Positions 22,383 through 29,018 of a DNA stretch of 29,220 bases are shown piece after piece; within the stretch, counting starts at the first letter, position 1; each line of letters starts with the position of its first letter. This DNA is from a virus, in the IMG/VR virus record IMGVR_UViG_3300042373_001236, positions 1 to 29,220 of that record. One strand, given 5' to 3'. The notes under the pieces were generated by a model that worked only from the letters and a program-made list of their open reading frames with translations, was not told the DNA's origin and did not search any database. Position numbers and translations under genes: made by a program.

Positions 22383-23681
22383 TCAGGCAGGTGCGCTGTC
22401 GAGGGTAACTTCGACGAACGACTCTGGACGCTTAACAGCAAGTGCAATACGCTCTTCAGCAAGTACTGCAACTGCGTTGCGAACAAAGAAGTCGCTGTGT
22501 TGCTCGGAAACGCGGATGTTGCCTTCCATACGGTCGTACAGCGTTGCGCCAACACCGAATGAACCAAGGAGAACCTTGCCTTCGGTGATTGCTGGCGTGC
22601 TGACGATTGGCAAACGCCACAAGCGAGCATCTGCACCCATCGATACCGACATAACCATCAAGTAGTTATAGTTTGCATCCTTTGAGAGTTCGATGTCTTC
22701 AAGGTCGTTTGGATGGACAATCATGCCTGTTGGCTCGTAGTAAGCGAGCAACGACTTGGTGATACCACGACGAATTGCATCGAGGCGGGTGTCGTTTGCA
22801 ACACCACTTGACCAATTAGAGGTCTGAATTCCAGAAGTCGAACGGATACCAGTGAGGTTTTGGCCAACACCGTTTCCGTTAAGAATCTGGTCATCTTCTA
22901 CCAAGCGGAGTCCGTACAACAGTTCGTTGTCGATAATTCCACGAAGGGTTGGCTCGTCGTCCAACACATTGCGGTGAGCAACTTCGTAGTGAGCAATCGT
23001 GCGAACTGGAGCCTGAACACCAACGACGGTCATTGACGACTGTGGTTTTACACCAAAGGCGTTGTTTGCGTCGTTGCGCTCTGCAACTGTCGATGCGTTG
23101 TTGGTGAAACCAGAAACACGGAAGTATTCAACCATGTTGCTGTTCGTCTGCTGTACATCGAAGAGTTCGCGTACGCGCATAGTGCGCTTCTGACGCTCGA
23201 TGATGCCTTCACGCTGTGGCGTACCGAAGTCTGTAGGGGTGCCTGATGGCAATCCTGTGTAGACATCTTTGCGACCCCAGTGTGACGAGAACGAACCATT
23301 TACTTGGAATGGTGCGTGCATCGTGTAACCAGACTTACCACCAGCAATTGCCTTGAACTCATCTGATTCAACGAACTGCTCGCCGAGGCTCTTTGAGCCC
23401 TGTGGAACAATCAAACCAGACTTGGTCTGTGCTACTGGTGCGGTCATGCCTTCAGCCCATGAGCGAATTTCGCCCATACCTTCCAAGGCCTCGATTTCAG
23501 CACGGATTTCGCGTGCCTTTGCGAGGTTGCCTCGGAATGCTTCAACATGCTTTGCTTGTACTTGAACTTCAGGTCCGCCTTCTTCGCGGGTAGCGCCTGC
23601 ATGGTCAACGATTGCATCGTTGTCTGCAAGAACTGCACGGAGGGCTGACTTGAGTTCCTTTAAACGGCTATCTGTAGCCAT
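22383..23681 (-). CDS. Major capsid protein, HK97 fold
   Basis: The protein has 432 residues, a normal size for HK97 gp5-type proteins with an internal scaffold. Residues 1-75 are helical and charged (RLKELKSALRAVLADNDAIV, then KHVEAFRGNLAKAREIRAEI), the delta domain expected to be cut off by the prohead protease, followed by a linker. The body has VGVQAPVRTIAHYEVAHRNV, DNELLYGLRLVEDDQILNGN, GMIVHPNDLEDIELSKDANY, GKVLLGSFGVGATLYDRMEG and AVLAEERIALAVKRPESFVE, all classic for this family. A strong AAAAGGAG ribosome site lies 9 bases before the ATG. Residues 138-159 closely match a segment of the prohead protease. Confidence 0.95.
   Translation of the reverse strand: MATDSRLKELKSALRAVLADNDAIVDHAGATREEGGPEVQVQAKHVEAFRGNLAKAREIRAEIEALEGMGEIRSWAEGMTAPVAQTKSGLIVPQGSKSLGEQFVESDEFKAIAGGKSGYTMHAPFQVNGSFSSHWGRKDVYTGLPSGTPTDFGTPQREGIIERQKRTMRVRELFDVQQTNSNMVEYFRVSGFTNNASTVAERNDANNAFGVKPQSSMTVVGVQAPVRTIAHYEVAHRNVLDDEPTLRGIIDNELLYGLRLVEDDQILNGNGVGQNLTGIRSTSGIQTSNWSSGVANDTRLDAIRRGITKSLLAYYEPTGMIVHPNDLEDIELSKDANYNYLMVMSVSMGADARLWRLPIVSTPAITEGKVLLGSFGVGATLYDRMEGNIRVSEQHSDFFVRNAVAVLAEERIALAVKRPESFVEVTLDSAPA
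23205..23270 (-). other. Capsid copy of a segment shared with the prohead protease
   Basis: Residues 138-159 of the capsid protein include YTGLPSGTPTDFGTPQR. The prohead protease has FTDMPSGTPGSFGTPQR at its residues 383-399. Over 22 aligned residues, 15 are identical, and the DNA is also alike. Confidence 0.8.
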
Positions 23682-23792: not shown

Positions 23793-24095
23793 TTAATTGT
23801 CTTCGTCTTCTTCGTCTTCGTTTTGACCAAACATGTCCAATAGGTCTTGGAATGTAACATCAGAAGCCATAAAGGGCTTGGCTATTACATCGCCTTTGAA
23901 TGTAATTTTTGGGCCCACTGCAATATTGCTCATCGCATCTAGTATGCGTTCAAATACAGAAACAGCAACAAATGGTGGTATTGAGCCTAAATCAACATGG
24001 ATTGGCTCATCTCGGTCTTCGTAGGATACAGAAATAGTAATCATTGGAAAGCGCAGGTTCATCTGGCTTTCAAGAGGGTCGCGACCCTCTGTCAT
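23793..24095 (-). CDS. Acidic phage protein of unknown function, 100 aa
   Basis: I start at the ATG at 24095, which overlaps the TGA of the phosphoesterase gene (ATGA); a longer frame upstream is only a shadow of that gene. The product starts MTEGRDPLESQMNLRFPMIT, with strands ISVSYEDRDEPIHVDLGSIP and a helix PFVAVSVFERILDAM, then GPKITFKGDVIAKPFMASDV, and ends in a very acidic tail, GQNEDEEDEDN. I do not recognise a family. It lies just before the capsid promoter and could be a small head assembly or regulatory protein; this is only position-based. Confidence 0.7.
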   Translation of the reverse strand: MTEGRDPLESQMNLRFPMITISVSYEDRDEPIHVDLGSIPPFVAVSVFERILDAMSNIAVGPKITFKGDVIAKPFMASDVTFQDLLDMFGQNEDEEDEDN

Positions 24096-25078
24096 TTTTT
24101 CTTGTCTGCCTTGTATGTCTTTCCGCGATAGAACATAGAACCATTGTGAATTGGAACAAGTTCTAGATGGAATGGACCATCTCCAGCAACATAGTGCACA
24201 ACAGCAATTCCTTGCTGCCAATCTTCCGTGCATGGGATTGGGCGTCCGTCGAGGTCTGTCCCGCCTTTTGTGCTTGGCACGACGCCGTCCACGCGAGCAA
24301 GACATCCTGCAGATGCGGCGAGAATAGTTTTATCTTCATCCCAATCTTGGCGGGTTCGCTCTGCCCATTCGCGGCGATGGATATGTCCATAAAGAACTGA
24401 AGTCTTTTCTGTTGCGAGATATTTATGAGCAGTGCTTCCGCCAGATGCGACTTTATGTCCGTGAATAATTCTTAACTTGCGATTAACCCAATATGTTGAC
24501 GCTGGGTATCCTGGCAAATACTTAACACCAAATTCTTCAAATCTGCAAAGATAAGGAAGCGACATAACTGGCCATGAGTCTGGGATATTCCCACGCTTCA
24601 AACCAAAAGCAGCATTTGCATTATCAAGAATATAATTTCCTAATCTTGCTTCGTGATTTCCCTCAAGCCAAACAATTTCAGCGAGTGGAGATGCTGCGCG
24701 AAGGCGCGCCATAAGCGTTGTTAAATAATCAATTGTTTTTTGTGTTGTCAATTGATAAGCAGGAGTTAGTCTGTACTTTCCAAATTCTGCAAAGTCAGCA
24801 TTGTCTCCATTCATTGCAATCACATCTGGCTTTGATTCTTTGATAAATTCAACAGCCAAATTAATTGCAATTTCATCATGGATAGCAACAAAATTGCCGT
24901 TTACATCCCTGAAATAACCACATTGCATATCTGGCAAAACTACGCATGTTTTAAACTGCGACTTTTCTTTTTTAACAGTTGCAACTGTAGGAAGTTTTAT
25001 TGACGGGCCTCTTTTTACTACTGGCCATTCTGGGGAGTTGCGATTCATTGCTGATTTTAAATCTTTTGACAATGACAT
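24092..25078 (-). CDS. Calcineurin-like metallophosphoesterase
   Basis: The protein has 328 residues. Metal-site motifs are all present in order: D50-M-Q52 (in place of the usual DxH), GDNADF with D92, GNHEAR with N141 and H142, H206-G-H208, and GHIHR with H232 and H234. Known: such enzymes hydrolyse phosphomono- or diesters with two metal ions; phage members are often of unknown substrate, and some act on DNA ends or nucleotides. The MSLSKDLKSAM start resembles the actinophage group that pairs with a small HTH gene, which is the case here (TAATG overlap). Its place between protease and capsid genes is unusual. The class is firm, the substrate unknown. Confidence 0.9.
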   Translation of the reverse strand: MSLSKDLKSAMNRNSPEWPVVKRGPSIKLPTVATVKKEKSQFKTCVVLPDMQCGYFRDVNGNFVAIHDEIAINLAVEFIKESKPDVIAMNGDNADFAEFGKYRLTPAYQLTTQKTIDYLTTLMARLRAASPLAEIVWLEGNHEARLGNYILDNANAAFGLKRGNIPDSWPVMSLPYLCRFEEFGVKYLPGYPASTYWVNRKLRIIHGHKVASGGSTAHKYLATEKTSVLYGHIHRREWAERTRQDWDEDKTILAASAGCLARVDGVVPSTKGGTDLDGRPIPCTEDWQQGIAVVHYVAGDGPFHLELVPIHNGSMFYRGKTYKADKKK

Positions 25079-25373: not shown

Positions 25374-26279
25374 CTATAGCACTTTCAGGAGGTCGTGGAA
25401 CTCTTTAAGGTCATCGAATGAAAGTTCTGCTGTTTCCATCTGAACCAATTCAGACTTTTCTTCAGCAACAACTTCTTCAGCAACAACTTCTTCAGCGGCG
25501 ACTTCTTCAACTGCTACTTCAACTGCTACTTCTTCTGCTGGTGCATCTGCAGCAACTTCTTCGACAGCAACTTCAGCAACTACTTCTTCAGCAACTGCTT
25601 CGGCGGCTTCATCCGACTTGGTCTCAACAGCAATTTCTTCTGCTTTTACTTCTGCGGTGTTCATTGCAGCAAGAGCCTTAGCAACTTCGCGTGCAACAAT
25701 CTCGGCAATCTGTGCTTCAATGTTCATATCTATGCTCTTTTCGTTATCCTCAACCATTGACATCTCGTCTTCTGGCATATCTTCATCTGCTGGGTCTTCG
25801 TCATCCATCGGCTCTGGAAGTTCTTCAACCATAGTCAATGCATCACCGTATGCTACTACAGTAACATTAGTAGGCATCCATTCGTCTTCATCCCACATCA
25901 TAACCCGTACGACATAGGCTGGGCGTTCGGCGGACCCTTCAATTTCAAGGCCCTGCGGCTCACCGCGAACAGTTCCTTCTGAAGACGAAGACAAGATGTC
26001 TCCATAATATGTGCCGTTTGATGTCTCCCACGAGACAAGCGCGCCTTCGGTCATTCCCTCATCAACTTTTTCCATGACCACAAAAGTGCGAAGTTTTACA
26101 TCTTCAACTGCAATTAAAACAGTTTCGTCTGTCTCTTCAAGTCCTTCCATGTCAAGACATTTCTGCACAAGCGCCTGTCCATCTTCGGAGATTCCAACGA
26201 TGATGCCAATGCTGTCATCGCTCAATAGAGCCTGCTGCCCAACAAAGGACTTATACGACTCAATATCAATCTTGCTCAT
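25374..26279 (-). CDS. Acidic Glu/Ala/Val-rich protein with Tudor/SH3-like domain, possible scaffold
   Basis: I start at the ATG at 26279 (MSKIDIESYKSFVGQQALLS), with GGAG 7 bases upstream and the start inside the last codons of the protease gene; the product has 301 residues. A beta-rich N-terminus (1-75) is followed by a domain (76-154, GALVSWETSNGTYYGDILSS ... PAYVVRVMMWDEDEWMPTNV) resembling the HVA-type Tudor/SH3-like domain that also occurs in the protease. Then come an acidic linker (about 156-180), a helix (AQIAEIVAREVAKALAAM), a long Glu/Ala/Val repeat region (about 205-275) and a conserved-looking end, LSFDDLKEFHDLLKVL. Inferred: an assembly or scaffold factor for the capsid, from position and composition. 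Not proven. Confidence 0.7.
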   Translation of the reverse strand: MSKIDIESYKSFVGQQALLSDDSIGIIVGISEDGQALVQKCLDMEGLEETDETVLIAVEDVKLRTFVVMEKVDEGMTEGALVSWETSNGTYYGDILSSSSEGTVRGEPQGLEIEGSAERPAYVVRVMMWDEDEWMPTNVTVVAYGDALTMVEELPEPMDDEDPADEDMPEDEMSMVEDNEKSIDMNIEAQIAEIVAREVAKALAAMNTAEVKAEEIAVETKSDEAAEAVAEEVVAEVAVEEVAADAPAEEVAVEVAVEEVAAEEVVAEEVVAEEKSELVQMETAELSFDDLKEFHDLLKVL

Positions 26280-28938
26280 CTGTTTTCTCCGTGATAGATA
26301 GTGGCTCACTAATGAGGCCTTTTTGCATCATAACATTATCAATGTACCCATCTGACTTTAGTTCAGGTGGCTTCTTACCGAAGTCACGGTAGTGACGGGC
26401 GAGATGATTGTACACAGCCTTGCGGTCTTCTCCGCGAAGTATCGTTCCACCGCGTCCGCCGTTGAGAATTGCCATCTCCGACTTCAACTCTGAATAAGCG
26501 GCTGCTCCAGGGCGACCATCTTCTGAAACATGGTGATGGATAAATGTGTAGTGGGTCTTACGAGTGCCATCTGTTCCAGGTGTATGGTAGGCAAAAATCT
26601 TTCGATAATAATCTTTGCCTTCTGGTGAACGAGTGTTCAGAATGGCGGAACGGTCGAGTGTTTCATCGTCACGAACTGCCGTTGAATGCGAAGGAATTGG
26701 TCCACCTTCAGCCTTAACCTCAATGCCAGAATCTTCGCTGAGTGGCTTTGTAATAATTCCTTTTTGAATCATAACGAAGTCGACAAACTCGTCTGACTTA
26801 AGTTCTGGTGGCTCTTTTCCAGCATCTCGGTAATGAGCAGCAATGTGGTTGTAAACACCACGGCGTGCTTCGCCACGAAGAATCGTTCCAGAACGACCGC
26901 CGTTCAAAACAGCCATTGAGTTAATCAACGCTGAGTATGAAGCCTCGCCTGGAGTTCCGTCAGCACCAACATAGTGGTGAATATAGTTATAATGGGTCTT
27001 ACGAGTTCCATCTGTATTCGGATTCTGGAATGCAAATATTTTGTTGAAATAAGATGGGGTCCCTGGTGATTTCATGCTTCTGAATGGAGCAGTTTTATCC
27101 CATGCGCGTGATGTATTCACACCTGTTTTGTGCGTTGCAATAACTCGTCCGTTTGGACCCGCATCTTTAACTTCTTCTTGTTCAGCAGATTTTGCTCCAG
27201 CAGATTCTTCACGCATTTTAGGATTTGCTAAAAGTTCTTCGCGGATAATCCATAGTTTGCAAATTGCTTCTGGTTCAATACTTCCAGACACAATTTCGCA
27301 CTTCTTCCCACCCTCAAAGAAGACGCAATTAGAACACTTCATGCCCTCTGAAGCAAATGGATTCTCTTCCATGTAGTGAGCGCCATTAGCGCCACTTCCT
27401 TGGTCCCACATACCGAATTCTTCAGCCATAGTTTCAAACAGGTCATACATTGTGAACTGGCGTGGGTTCAACCCCATCTCTTGCTGTTCGGCAAGACCTT
27501 CAACCATGTCATCTTGGTGCGGTACGACTTCTGGACCCTGCATTTCTTCATGCATGTCCTTTTCTCCCTGCATTGCTGCATTTAAAGCAGCAAGGTGTGC
27601 TTGTGCTTCGGCGAGAGTCAGATGGCATCCACCTGAAACAATTCCTTCTCCAACTTTAACGACTGCATAACCGCTACAACCCTGAACATCTTGCTCAATG
27701 CTGTATGGCTTTTCTTCTGGAGCATTTGGCGTGGTACCAATTCTTTGTGGGGTACCGAAAGAACCTGGTGTTCCTGATGGCATATCAGTGAAGGCGTCCT
27801 TCTTTGAAATATCCATCTTTGTAAGGGTTGAGAACTTATGCCCAACTCGTACTTCTGTGGGTGAATAATCAAGTCCCTCTTTGCGGTAAACACGAATCAG
27901 CGCTGCTGGGTCTTCTGGTGTACCAGTAATAGTGAAACTGCTATTCGGGACATCTATTTCACCGTCGCGCTCAATACGCTCAATTCGTCCGTACGCTCTA
28001 CCGCCAGATGCGCGCCAAGTAACAAAGTCGCTAGTCTTCAGCCCGTTTGGTTCTGCTTTCATTTCATCGCGTGAGTTCATTGCGTCAACAAGTTTTTGAG
28101 CCCAGCGCCATCCAGCATTTCCACCCCACAGTTTCCATGCAATCAGTCCTGCACCTGGATATCCATCTGCGCCTGGTTTGCTATTTGCTGGAGTCTTGAG
28201 GTCTACTGCGTGGCGTGGGAAGTAGCGCGCGATGTGACGAGCCTTTTCAGGGCTAACAGTAGAATTGTTGAGTAGGTAATTAGCCGTAGCCTTACCAACC
28301 TCAGTTCCGCCTCGGTTAAATTCTTTCGACCACCTGAGACCAGTCTCTGCTTGACTTTTAACACCAGAAGGAATGCCGAAATCAATGTCATCGTACTTGC
28401 CAGGAGCCTTTGCTTCAATTTCGACTCCGTCCTCTTTCAGGCTTAATGTACGGGTGCTTGGGGCGGCACCAAAAATTACTGGTGAGTACTCAAATAATTC
28501 CAATTGCTTAATATAACGAATTCCAGTTTTTGAATCAACTTCGTATTTTCCTTCTGGAACCGCATAGCCAATTGACCATTCTTGCTCTGGGCCGAAGAAC
28601 TGGACATCATAAAAAGCATCGCGCCCACGGCTTGTATTTAGGTTGAACTGCATTTTTACAAGCAGAGCACCAGCATTTTGCTGAATAAGGTCATTTGGAA
28701 GGCGTGGGTCATTTGGAAGAAGTTCCTCAACACGGAGAGTCTTACCAACTGGGATATTCGTATCGTGAGACCATACGACTTTAGGATTACGCTTCTTTAG
28801 CGTTAATTTATAAGCGCCTGGCTCAATTACATCGTTTACGGAGTCGACAATATTGGTAACGGAGACAATTGCCTCAACGATTCCATCTACATCATCAATG
28901 CCACGAACTGATGAAACTGATACTTGTTTGTGTTCCAA
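26266..28938 (-). CDS. HK97-type prohead protease with multiple accessory domains, 890 aa
   Basis: I choose the TTG at 28938 (MEHKQVSVSS), with GGAGG five bases upstream. Residues 1-165 are a U35-type prohead protease: DVIEPGAY, catalytic H58 in VVWSHDTNIPVG and S122 in EWSIGYAV. Then: a DFGIPSGV...GLRWSKEFNRGGTEV...AWKLWGGNAGW domain (about 186-292); an HVA/Tudor-like domain (about 303-375); the segment shared with the capsid protein (380-401); a YSIEQDVQGCSGYAVVKVGE...CHLTLAEAQAHLAALNA domain (412-455); a Cys4 segment (C535, C538, C547, C560); and two copies of a YNHxAxHYRDxGKxPPELKS domain. Known: the protease removes the capsid delta domain. Most such proteases are under 300 residues; this one is about four times larger. 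It follows the gpF-like gene, a normal head order. Confidence 0.9.
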   Translation of the reverse strand: MEHKQVSVSSVRGIDDVDGIVEAIVSVTNIVDSVNDVIEPGAYKLTLKKRNPKVVWSHDTNIPVGKTLRVEELLPNDPRLPNDLIQQNAGALLVKMQFNLNTSRGRDAFYDVQFFGPEQEWSIGYAVPEGKYEVDSKTGIRYIKQLELFEYSPVIFGAAPSTRTLSLKEDGVEIEAKAPGKYDDIDFGIPSGVKSQAETGLRWSKEFNRGGTEVGKATANYLLNNSTVSPEKARHIARYFPRHAVDLKTPANSKPGADGYPGAGLIAWKLWGGNAGWRWAQKLVDAMNSRDEMKAEPNGLKTSDFVTWRASGGRAYGRIERIERDGEIDVPNSSFTITGTPEDPAALIRVYRKEGLDYSPTEVRVGHKFSTLTKMDISKKDAFTDMPSGTPGSFGTPQRIGTTPNAPEEKPYSIEQDVQGCSGYAVVKVGEGIVSGGCHLTLAEAQAHLAALNAAMQGEKDMHEEMQGPEVVPHQDDMVEGLAEQQEMGLNPRQFTMYDLFETMAEEFGMWDQGSGANGAHYMEENPFASEGMKCSNCVFFEGGKKCEIVSGSIEPEAICKLWIIREELLANPKMREESAGAKSAEQEEVKDAGPNGRVIATHKTGVNTSRAWDKTAPFRSMKSPGTPSYFNKIFAFQNPNTDGTRKTHYNYIHHYVGADGTPGEASYSALINSMAVLNGGRSGTILRGEARRGVYNHIAAHYRDAGKEPPELKSDEFVDFVMIQKGIITKPLSEDSGIEVKAEGGPIPSHSTAVRDDETLDRSAILNTRSPEGKDYYRKIFAYHTPGTDGTRKTHYTFIHHHVSEDGRPGAAAYSELKSEMAILNGGRGGTILRGEDRKAVYNHLARHYRDFGKKPPELKSDGYIDNVMMQKGLISEPLSITEKTDEQD
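26290..26712 (-). repeat. C-terminal module of the protease, copy 2
   Basis: This is the second copy of a module of about 140 residues: YYRKIFAYHTPGTDGTRKTH, ILNGGRGGTILRGEDRKAVY, NHLARHYRDFGKKPPELKSD, NVMMQKGLISEPLS. It matches copy 1 (26731-27162) along its whole length. Confidence 0.85.
26731..27162 (-). repeat. C-terminal module of the protease, copy 1
   Basis: This is the first copy: YFNKIFAFQNPNTDGTRKTH, VLNGGRSGTILRGEARRGVY, NHIAAHYRDAGKEPPELKSD, FVMIQKGIITKPLS. The same type of domain occurs singly in phage prohead proteases and related head proteins; here it is duplicated in tandem. Confidence 0.85.
27736..27801 (-). other. Protease copy of a segment shared with the major capsid protein
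   Basis: Residues 380-401 of the protease include FTDMPSGTPGSFGTPQR, almost the same as capsid residues 141-157. Identical DNA stretches such as cctgatggca and gtaccgaa support common origin rather than chance. Confidence 0.8.
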
Positions 28939-28943
28939 AACGG

Positions 28944-28948
28944 CCTCC
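28944..28948 (-). promoter_or_regulatory. Ribosome site that fixes the protease start
   Basis: GGAGG on the minus strand lies five bases before the TTG at 28938. It makes that TTG a better start than the in-frame TTG at 28953, and the N-terminus MEHKQVSV then matches the usual start of this protease family. Confidence 0.75.
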
Positions 28949-29018
28949 TGCAAGAAGAGTAGCAGAAAATTGCAGTAAATGTTGTAATGTAGAGACTAAC
29001 TATTTAATTTCGTATAGT

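Follow-up and report, generated by a model that had tools for sequence, protein, structure and literature searches.

The closest described counterparts of the protein considered here are HK97 gp4 and the other S78 proteases (PF04586, phrog_80), which carry a catalytic domain with a His and a Ser and are encoded between the portal/Mu-F-like region and the coat gene. The HK97 coat protein is cut at K103/S104, a site that lies in an unstructured region of the shell (PMC10275583). A protease gene of this kind, in the same setting, is found at 26266..28938 (minus strand) of the virus record IMGVR_UViG_3300042373_001236 of IMG/VR; positions 1 to 29,220 of that record, i.e., the whole stretch of 29,220 nucleotides (nt) that was analysed, are referred to below as the window. 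As in the HK97 system, the coat protein of the window is expected to lose an N-terminal segment. However, HK97 gp4 has 225 amino acids (aa), whereas the window protease has 890 aa, adds five kinds of module to the catalytic domain and carries in its tail a copy of the coat junction; in addition, the window coat gene lies several genes downstream of the protease gene. The order of elements after the S78 domain is phrog_2859, a Tudor-like module, the coat-junction motif, a GYAVVK module, a Cys4 module and two end modules. Because the linker between modules carries a copy of the predicted coat cleavage junction, we consider it probable (roughly 0.6), judging from sequence, that the protease cuts itself at this copied junction during prohead maturation, when it cuts the coat.

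The coat junction and its copy in the protease

The major capsid protein of the window (22386..23681, minus; 432 aa; PF05065, E=3e-41) is encoded by a gene separate from that of the protease. By its position relative to HK97, the stretch of residues 1-138 (23268..23681, minus) is a putative N-terminal scaffold-like segment, and alignment to HK97 places the predicted junction between scaffold and mature protein at K138-G159, KDVYTGLPSGTPTDFGTPQREG (23205..23270, minus). In an alignment of nine coat proteins with identities as low as 46%, the invariant residues of the region are G136, K138, D139, F152, G153 and Q156. The distance to the conserved GII is also similar, K138 lying 21 residues before it in the window coat and K103 lying 20 residues before it in HK97. 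Phage D3 was considered as a second reference for the cleavage site and dropped, its protease being annotated as ClpP-like.

A self-search of the window showed that protease residues 378-403 (890-aa numbering; 383-408 when counted from the upstream TTG) match its own major capsid protein. The core of this match, and the only strong one between the two proteins, pairs protease K380-G401, KDAFTDMPSGTPGSFGTPQRIG (residues 380-401; 27736..27801, minus), with coat K138-G159. The initial annotation, which gave no strand for the gene, had missed this copy. In the AlphaFold2 model, residues 378-409, which include the motif, form a linker predicted to be disordered, and the predicted self-cleavage site is K380|D381.

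The match is far above chance. Its best ungapped 20-residue score is 81, against 31 +/- 3.6 (maximum 43) for 300 shuffled protease tails, and in 54 non-redundant protease/coat pairs the top 20-residue match between coat and protease tail scores 56-91 wherever the motif is present, with a runner-up of about 30. When a hidden Markov model of the motif was run against the 3389 open reading frames (ORFs) of all loci, strong matches were solely to coat proteins and proteases, and the rest had E>1.

Comparison of 21 distinct pairs locates the boundary of the copied unit. From -20 to -1, identity between protease and coat is at background (0-19%); then comes a Lys that is invariant in both, followed by an Asp kept in 20 of the 21 pairs, and neither set varies at T+4, P+7, G+9, P+11, F+14 or P+17. 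At locus L075, coat (KAVYT) and protease (KSVYT) have both lost the Asp. Since the similarity begins at the Lys, which aligns within one residue of HK97 K103, the copied unit likely starts at the P1 residue of the maturation cut.

The coat-like similarity comprises this Lys and about 21 residues of the mature N-arm, with none upstream. Such an extent would suit a mimic of the mature coat N-arm by which the protease or its cargo docks on the shell, with cutting secondary or absent. Yet the first residue of the copy is the presumed P1, and with a folded domain on either side a free N-arm end would require a cut, so that we regard this explanation as unlikely.

As to age, the two window copies have 15 of 22 residues in common, with the same codon at 5 of those 15, and pairwise identity of the motif among proteases is 75%, as against 15-19% for flanks of similar length. 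Because of this contrast in identity and the synonymous divergence of the codons, the sequence evidence indicates that the protease motif is an old copy, selected at the protein level.

The motif and module order across relatives

Seventeen of 20 oversized representatives have the motif (the count omits Streptomyces phage Gilgamesh, whose tail is unrelated), and no short relative has it. It was also searched for in Gordonia, Brevibacterium and Streptomyces-prophage proteases, where it was absent. The modules around it vary in order: protease-phrog2859-Tudor-motif, protease-Tudor-phrog2859-motif, protease-phrog2859-motif and protease-DUF5824-like-motif-phrog2859 all occur. Wherever Cys and end modules were recognised, the motif is always C-terminal to the protease and N-terminal to those modules.

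This variety bears on the idea of neutral mosaic growth, in which recombination with head genes would have added modules and motif that serve no particular function. Modules do shuffle freely and cross between the protease and the next gene, and three oversized relatives do without the motif. Against this, the motif is strongly conserved amid unconserved flanks and its placement is constant; we therefore find a purely neutral origin improbable.

Proposed self-cleavage and points against it

In the favoured reading, i.e., self-cleavage at the copied junction, the protease would enter the procapsid with the cargo modules on its C-terminus and would recognise its own motif as it does the coat, via the Lys and the residues after it. 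A cut at K380|D381, give or take one residue, during maturation would give products of 42.1 kDa (protease, phrog_2859 and Tudor) and 55.9 kDa (GYAVVK, Cys4 and two end modules). The freed C-terminal piece, beginning with a coat-like N-arm, might then stay in the head as an internal protein, and by analogy with HK97 the protease piece might be lost; we hold these last two steps less firmly than the cut. There is precedent in a different protease, gp245 of SPN3US, which autocleaves a 64-residue C-terminal propeptide (PMC10052503); in P1, the prohead protease removes the N-terminus of the internal head protein DarA close to the coat site (PMC12810830). The suggestion in the initial annotation that the protein may be cut into pieces after assembly thus has sequence support in the coat-junction motif, and the cut is a prediction from that motif.

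Several points weigh against self-cleavage. Cutting of the motif in the window phage or its close relatives is predicted from sequence, not from proteomics, and the reference site at K138/D139 of the window coat is itself derived from HK97. The similarity lies nearly all after the presumed cut and is unusually long for protease recognition. The motif is not essential everywhere, since L061, L070 and L073 are oversized and have no motif, and the loci are kin to each other, so the motif counts are not independent events. Finally, the protease copies differ from the coat copies at the fixed positions D+5, M+6 and S+13, and may therefore be cut differently or not at all.

These same invariant differences would be expected of a tuned, poorer substrate, as required if the motif were a pseudo-substrate that is not cut, fills the active site in cis and silences the protease until the coat lattice displaces it. 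However, short relatives have no motif, so self-inhibition is not a general need, and the location of the motif follows the cargo boundary. We find the pseudo-substrate explanation doubtful.

It is also conceivable that the extra modules act, as one uncut protein, as an internal scaffold or head-size determinant. The protein is one expected in the procapsid and has several folded modules, and the next gene has an acidic tail. The scaffold role proposed by the initial annotation is nevertheless unsupported, because the coat protein carries its own scaffold-like N-terminal segment of about 138 residues, as in HK97; moreover, marine relatives with similar coat proteins manage without the middle modules. 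We give this explanation very little weight.

The gene and its modules

The ORF is open across 26266-28953 on the minus strand, and 890 codons are counted from the TTG at 28938 in one uninterrupted frame. This TTG is the best start, being the sole in-frame start with a Shine-Dalgarno sequence (AGGAGG, 5 nt spacing). Read-through, a frameshift or two genes were considered and rejected: no internal start with a Shine-Dalgarno sequence was found within the 26266-28938 ORF, and ORFs are collinear in many contigs. The ORF is full-length and collinear in independent viral contigs (42-100% identity), and over 20 contigs of related phages carry it intact, so that it is not an assembly error. The reading as a single gene, for which a separate internal start or a frameshift had been named in advance as refuting evidence, therefore stands.

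The initial annotation had described an oversized, mosaic prohead protease in which the protease domain takes a small share of 890 residues and an end module is duplicated, and this is borne out. The S78 domain (residues 20-165; 28444..28881, minus) is recognised by PF04586 (E=1e-11; 45.7 bits, cut-off 21), by phrog_80 (E=6.5e-29) and by alignment to HK97 gp4, and the whole protein is about 5 times as long as its catalytic domain. Its TIGR01543 score of 45.2 bits is under the equivalog cut-off of 59. Catalytic H58 aligns with HK97 H65, and S122, in WSIGY, with the Ser of HK97 MSVGF; both are invariant across 26 homologues. The gene lies in a head operon, with the coat gene downstream and a weak Mu-F-like C-terminus upstream. 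By profile and active site, the catalytic part is an S78/HK97-type prohead protease.

The added modules are mostly phage modules known from other places. The profile searches per module that had been proposed found S78 and phrog_2859; in the window, Tudor and the high potential iron-sulfur protein (HiPIP) family stayed below cut-off, and the end module had no Pfam family. The helical phrog_2859 module (residues ~182-291; 28066..28395, minus; E=2.6e-14) has helices in the model. It is followed by a Tudor/SH3-like module (residues ~300-370; 27829..28041, minus; PF11160, E=0.001), modelled as all-beta with a predicted local distance difference test (pLDDT) score of 80-90; for Hva1_TUDOR (PF11160) the window reaches 19.6 bits, below the cut-off of 24.1, and the relative L048 25.9, above it. 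The GYAVVK module, defined from sequence (residues ~412-465; 27544..27705, minus), has 2 Cys and a beta-alpha model (pLDDT ~85).

The Cys4 module (residues ~492-565; 27244..27465, minus) contains C535, C538, C547 and C560. The initial annotation had allowed for Zn or Fe-S; in sequence the module resembles HiPIP (Fe-S) more closely than zinc proteins, at a sub-threshold level (the segment alone scores 16.0 bits against PF01355, cut-off 22, E=0.015). Its four Cys are in register with HiPIP 3h31 (C-x2-C...C...C), itself a weak hit (E=0.43), and the region has no confident structure in the AlphaFold2 model of the whole protein. That model has a mean pLDDT of 66 over the entire 890 aa, with folded modules joined by low-confidence linkers, and a fold search with it gave no significant match.

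An actinobacterial host is suggested by the nearest annotated phages in protease domain and coat, whose hosts are Gordonia and Brevibacterium, and by the presence of related protease domains in genomes of Streptomyces and Kitasatospora.

End modules, the next gene and Cys cassettes

The two end modules, copy 1 (26737..27150, minus; 138 aa) and copy 2 (26296..26703, minus; 136 aa; modelled alone at pLDDT 96), are 57% identical. They match no Pfam family and only weakly match PHROG families, with no fold match in PDB (best E=2.6); among viral models, a fold search gave two confident matches, both to unnamed proteins. A relative of the module is present in a head-region protein of Methanocaldococcus fervens tailed virus 1, an archaeal tailed virus (L037:3638-4744), and therefore the module spans bacterial and archaeal viruses.

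The next gene (25374..26279, minus) encodes a Tudor-like module and an acidic tail, and there is a 14-nt overlap between its ATG and the stop of the protease gene. In most oversized relatives, its counterpart begins with an end module and finishes in an acidic tail, whereas in the window clade both end-module copies are inside the protease and the next gene begins with the Tudor-like region. In the tree, window copy 2 groups with the single end-module copy found in the proteases of other relatives (98/97 support), and the pair therefore does not stem from a fresh duplication. An explanation of the length by recent tandem duplication was accordingly rejected, copy 2 being the orthologue of the relatives' single protease copy and other copies lying in the next gene. 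Of the duplication described initially, then, the two end modules stand, and a recent event special to the window phage does not. In marine relatives (~515 aa), protease, end module and acidic tail are directly joined in one gene, and their proteases have 0-2 Cys.

Another Cys-rich module (C-x2-C...GYC..FKC..RTCDAW) takes the place of Cys4 in L010 (3764-6508) and L048 (6001-8835), and is also found in the L025 protease and in a gene of phage DSL-LC01 annotated as a high potential iron-sulfur protein. Because the cassette is swapped in L010 and L048 while the remainder of the protein is alike, sequence comparison suggests that the two Cys-rich cassettes are interchangeable. A broader proposal is that these phages bring extra proteins into the head as fusions to the maturation protease and free them by means of a copied coat cleavage junction, that the coat-like N-arm may fix the cargo to the inner shell, and that the Cys cassette, of either type, is part of the cargo; we offer this only tentatively.

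Other genes of the window

A metallophosphoesterase gene (24092-25078, minus) lies between the protease and coat genes; Streptomyces phage Gilgamesh has one just after its coat gene. A tryptophan-halogenase-like gene (3-984, minus; E=9e-21), cut by the contig end, adjoins a 2OG-Fe(II) oxygenase gene (E=2e-13), beside glycine-rich, collagen-like and HNPGG-repeat proteins of the tail region. Modification of virion proteins is a possible role for this pair of genes.

Significance

Few cleavage sites of maturation proteases are, to our knowledge, known in HK97-type phages. The 21 distinct pairs of coat and protease substrates pinpoint likely recognition residues, and this is testable by expressing two genes. 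If the protein is cut as predicted, the head protease would double as a vehicle for cargo modules, carrying them into the capsid and releasing them, and the modules would be swapped as cassettes between phages. Among open-licence papers, no report was found of a maturation protease with a long copy of the coat cleavage junction before cargo modules, or of Cys cassettes in head proteases.

Comparison with known systems

The closest annotated protease domains (50-56% identity) belong to the Gordonia and Brevibacterium phages GMA6, Cantare, DalanDe and Chidiebere, whose coat proteins are ~49% identical to that of the window and have the same KD[IV][YF] junction. Unlike the window protease, theirs have different acidic tails, and Tudor, Cys4, end module and coat-junction copy were not detected in them. 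DalanDe encodes a 1633-aa annotated capsid maturation protease (L046:25-4926), with ~1100 residues before the protease domain; it is oversized as well, with a different make-up.

Roseobacter phage CRP-811 and cyanophages S-CBS1/3 also have phrog_2859 on a head protein (annotated as major capsid protein), with Tudor too in CRP-811. However, their modules are N-terminal to an apparent protease-coat fusion and no match to the coat-junction motif was detected, whereas in the window protease and coat are separate genes ~2.6 kb apart. The origin from a protease-coat fusion raised by the CRP-811 hit (residues 192-415) was rejected, the CRP-811 modules preceding the protease. In Methanocaldococcus fervens tailed virus 1, QNO11481.1 contains an end-module relative and is encoded two genes upstream of a likely coat gene; it differs in coming from an archaeal virus, at 28-29% identity, and in having a single copy.

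SPN3US gp245 (T4/phiKZ-like) is alike in cutting itself close to its C-terminus, at a consensus shared with head proteins (PMC10052503). Unlike the window protein, it is another type of protease, has a short consensus ending in Glu and releases a 64-residue propeptide only.

The marine relatives of ~515 aa (e.g., L092 and L104) share the protease and coat type and have one end module. A contig of 13,006 bases from a Gemmatimonadetes metagenome-assembled genome (L263, PATE01000044.1) carries protease and coat genes of the marine type; it is probably viral DNA that was binned with a bacterial genome. Unlike the window protease, the L092/L104 type has no middle modules, almost no Cys and no motif, and an acidic tail resembling that of the window's next gene comes directly after its end module.

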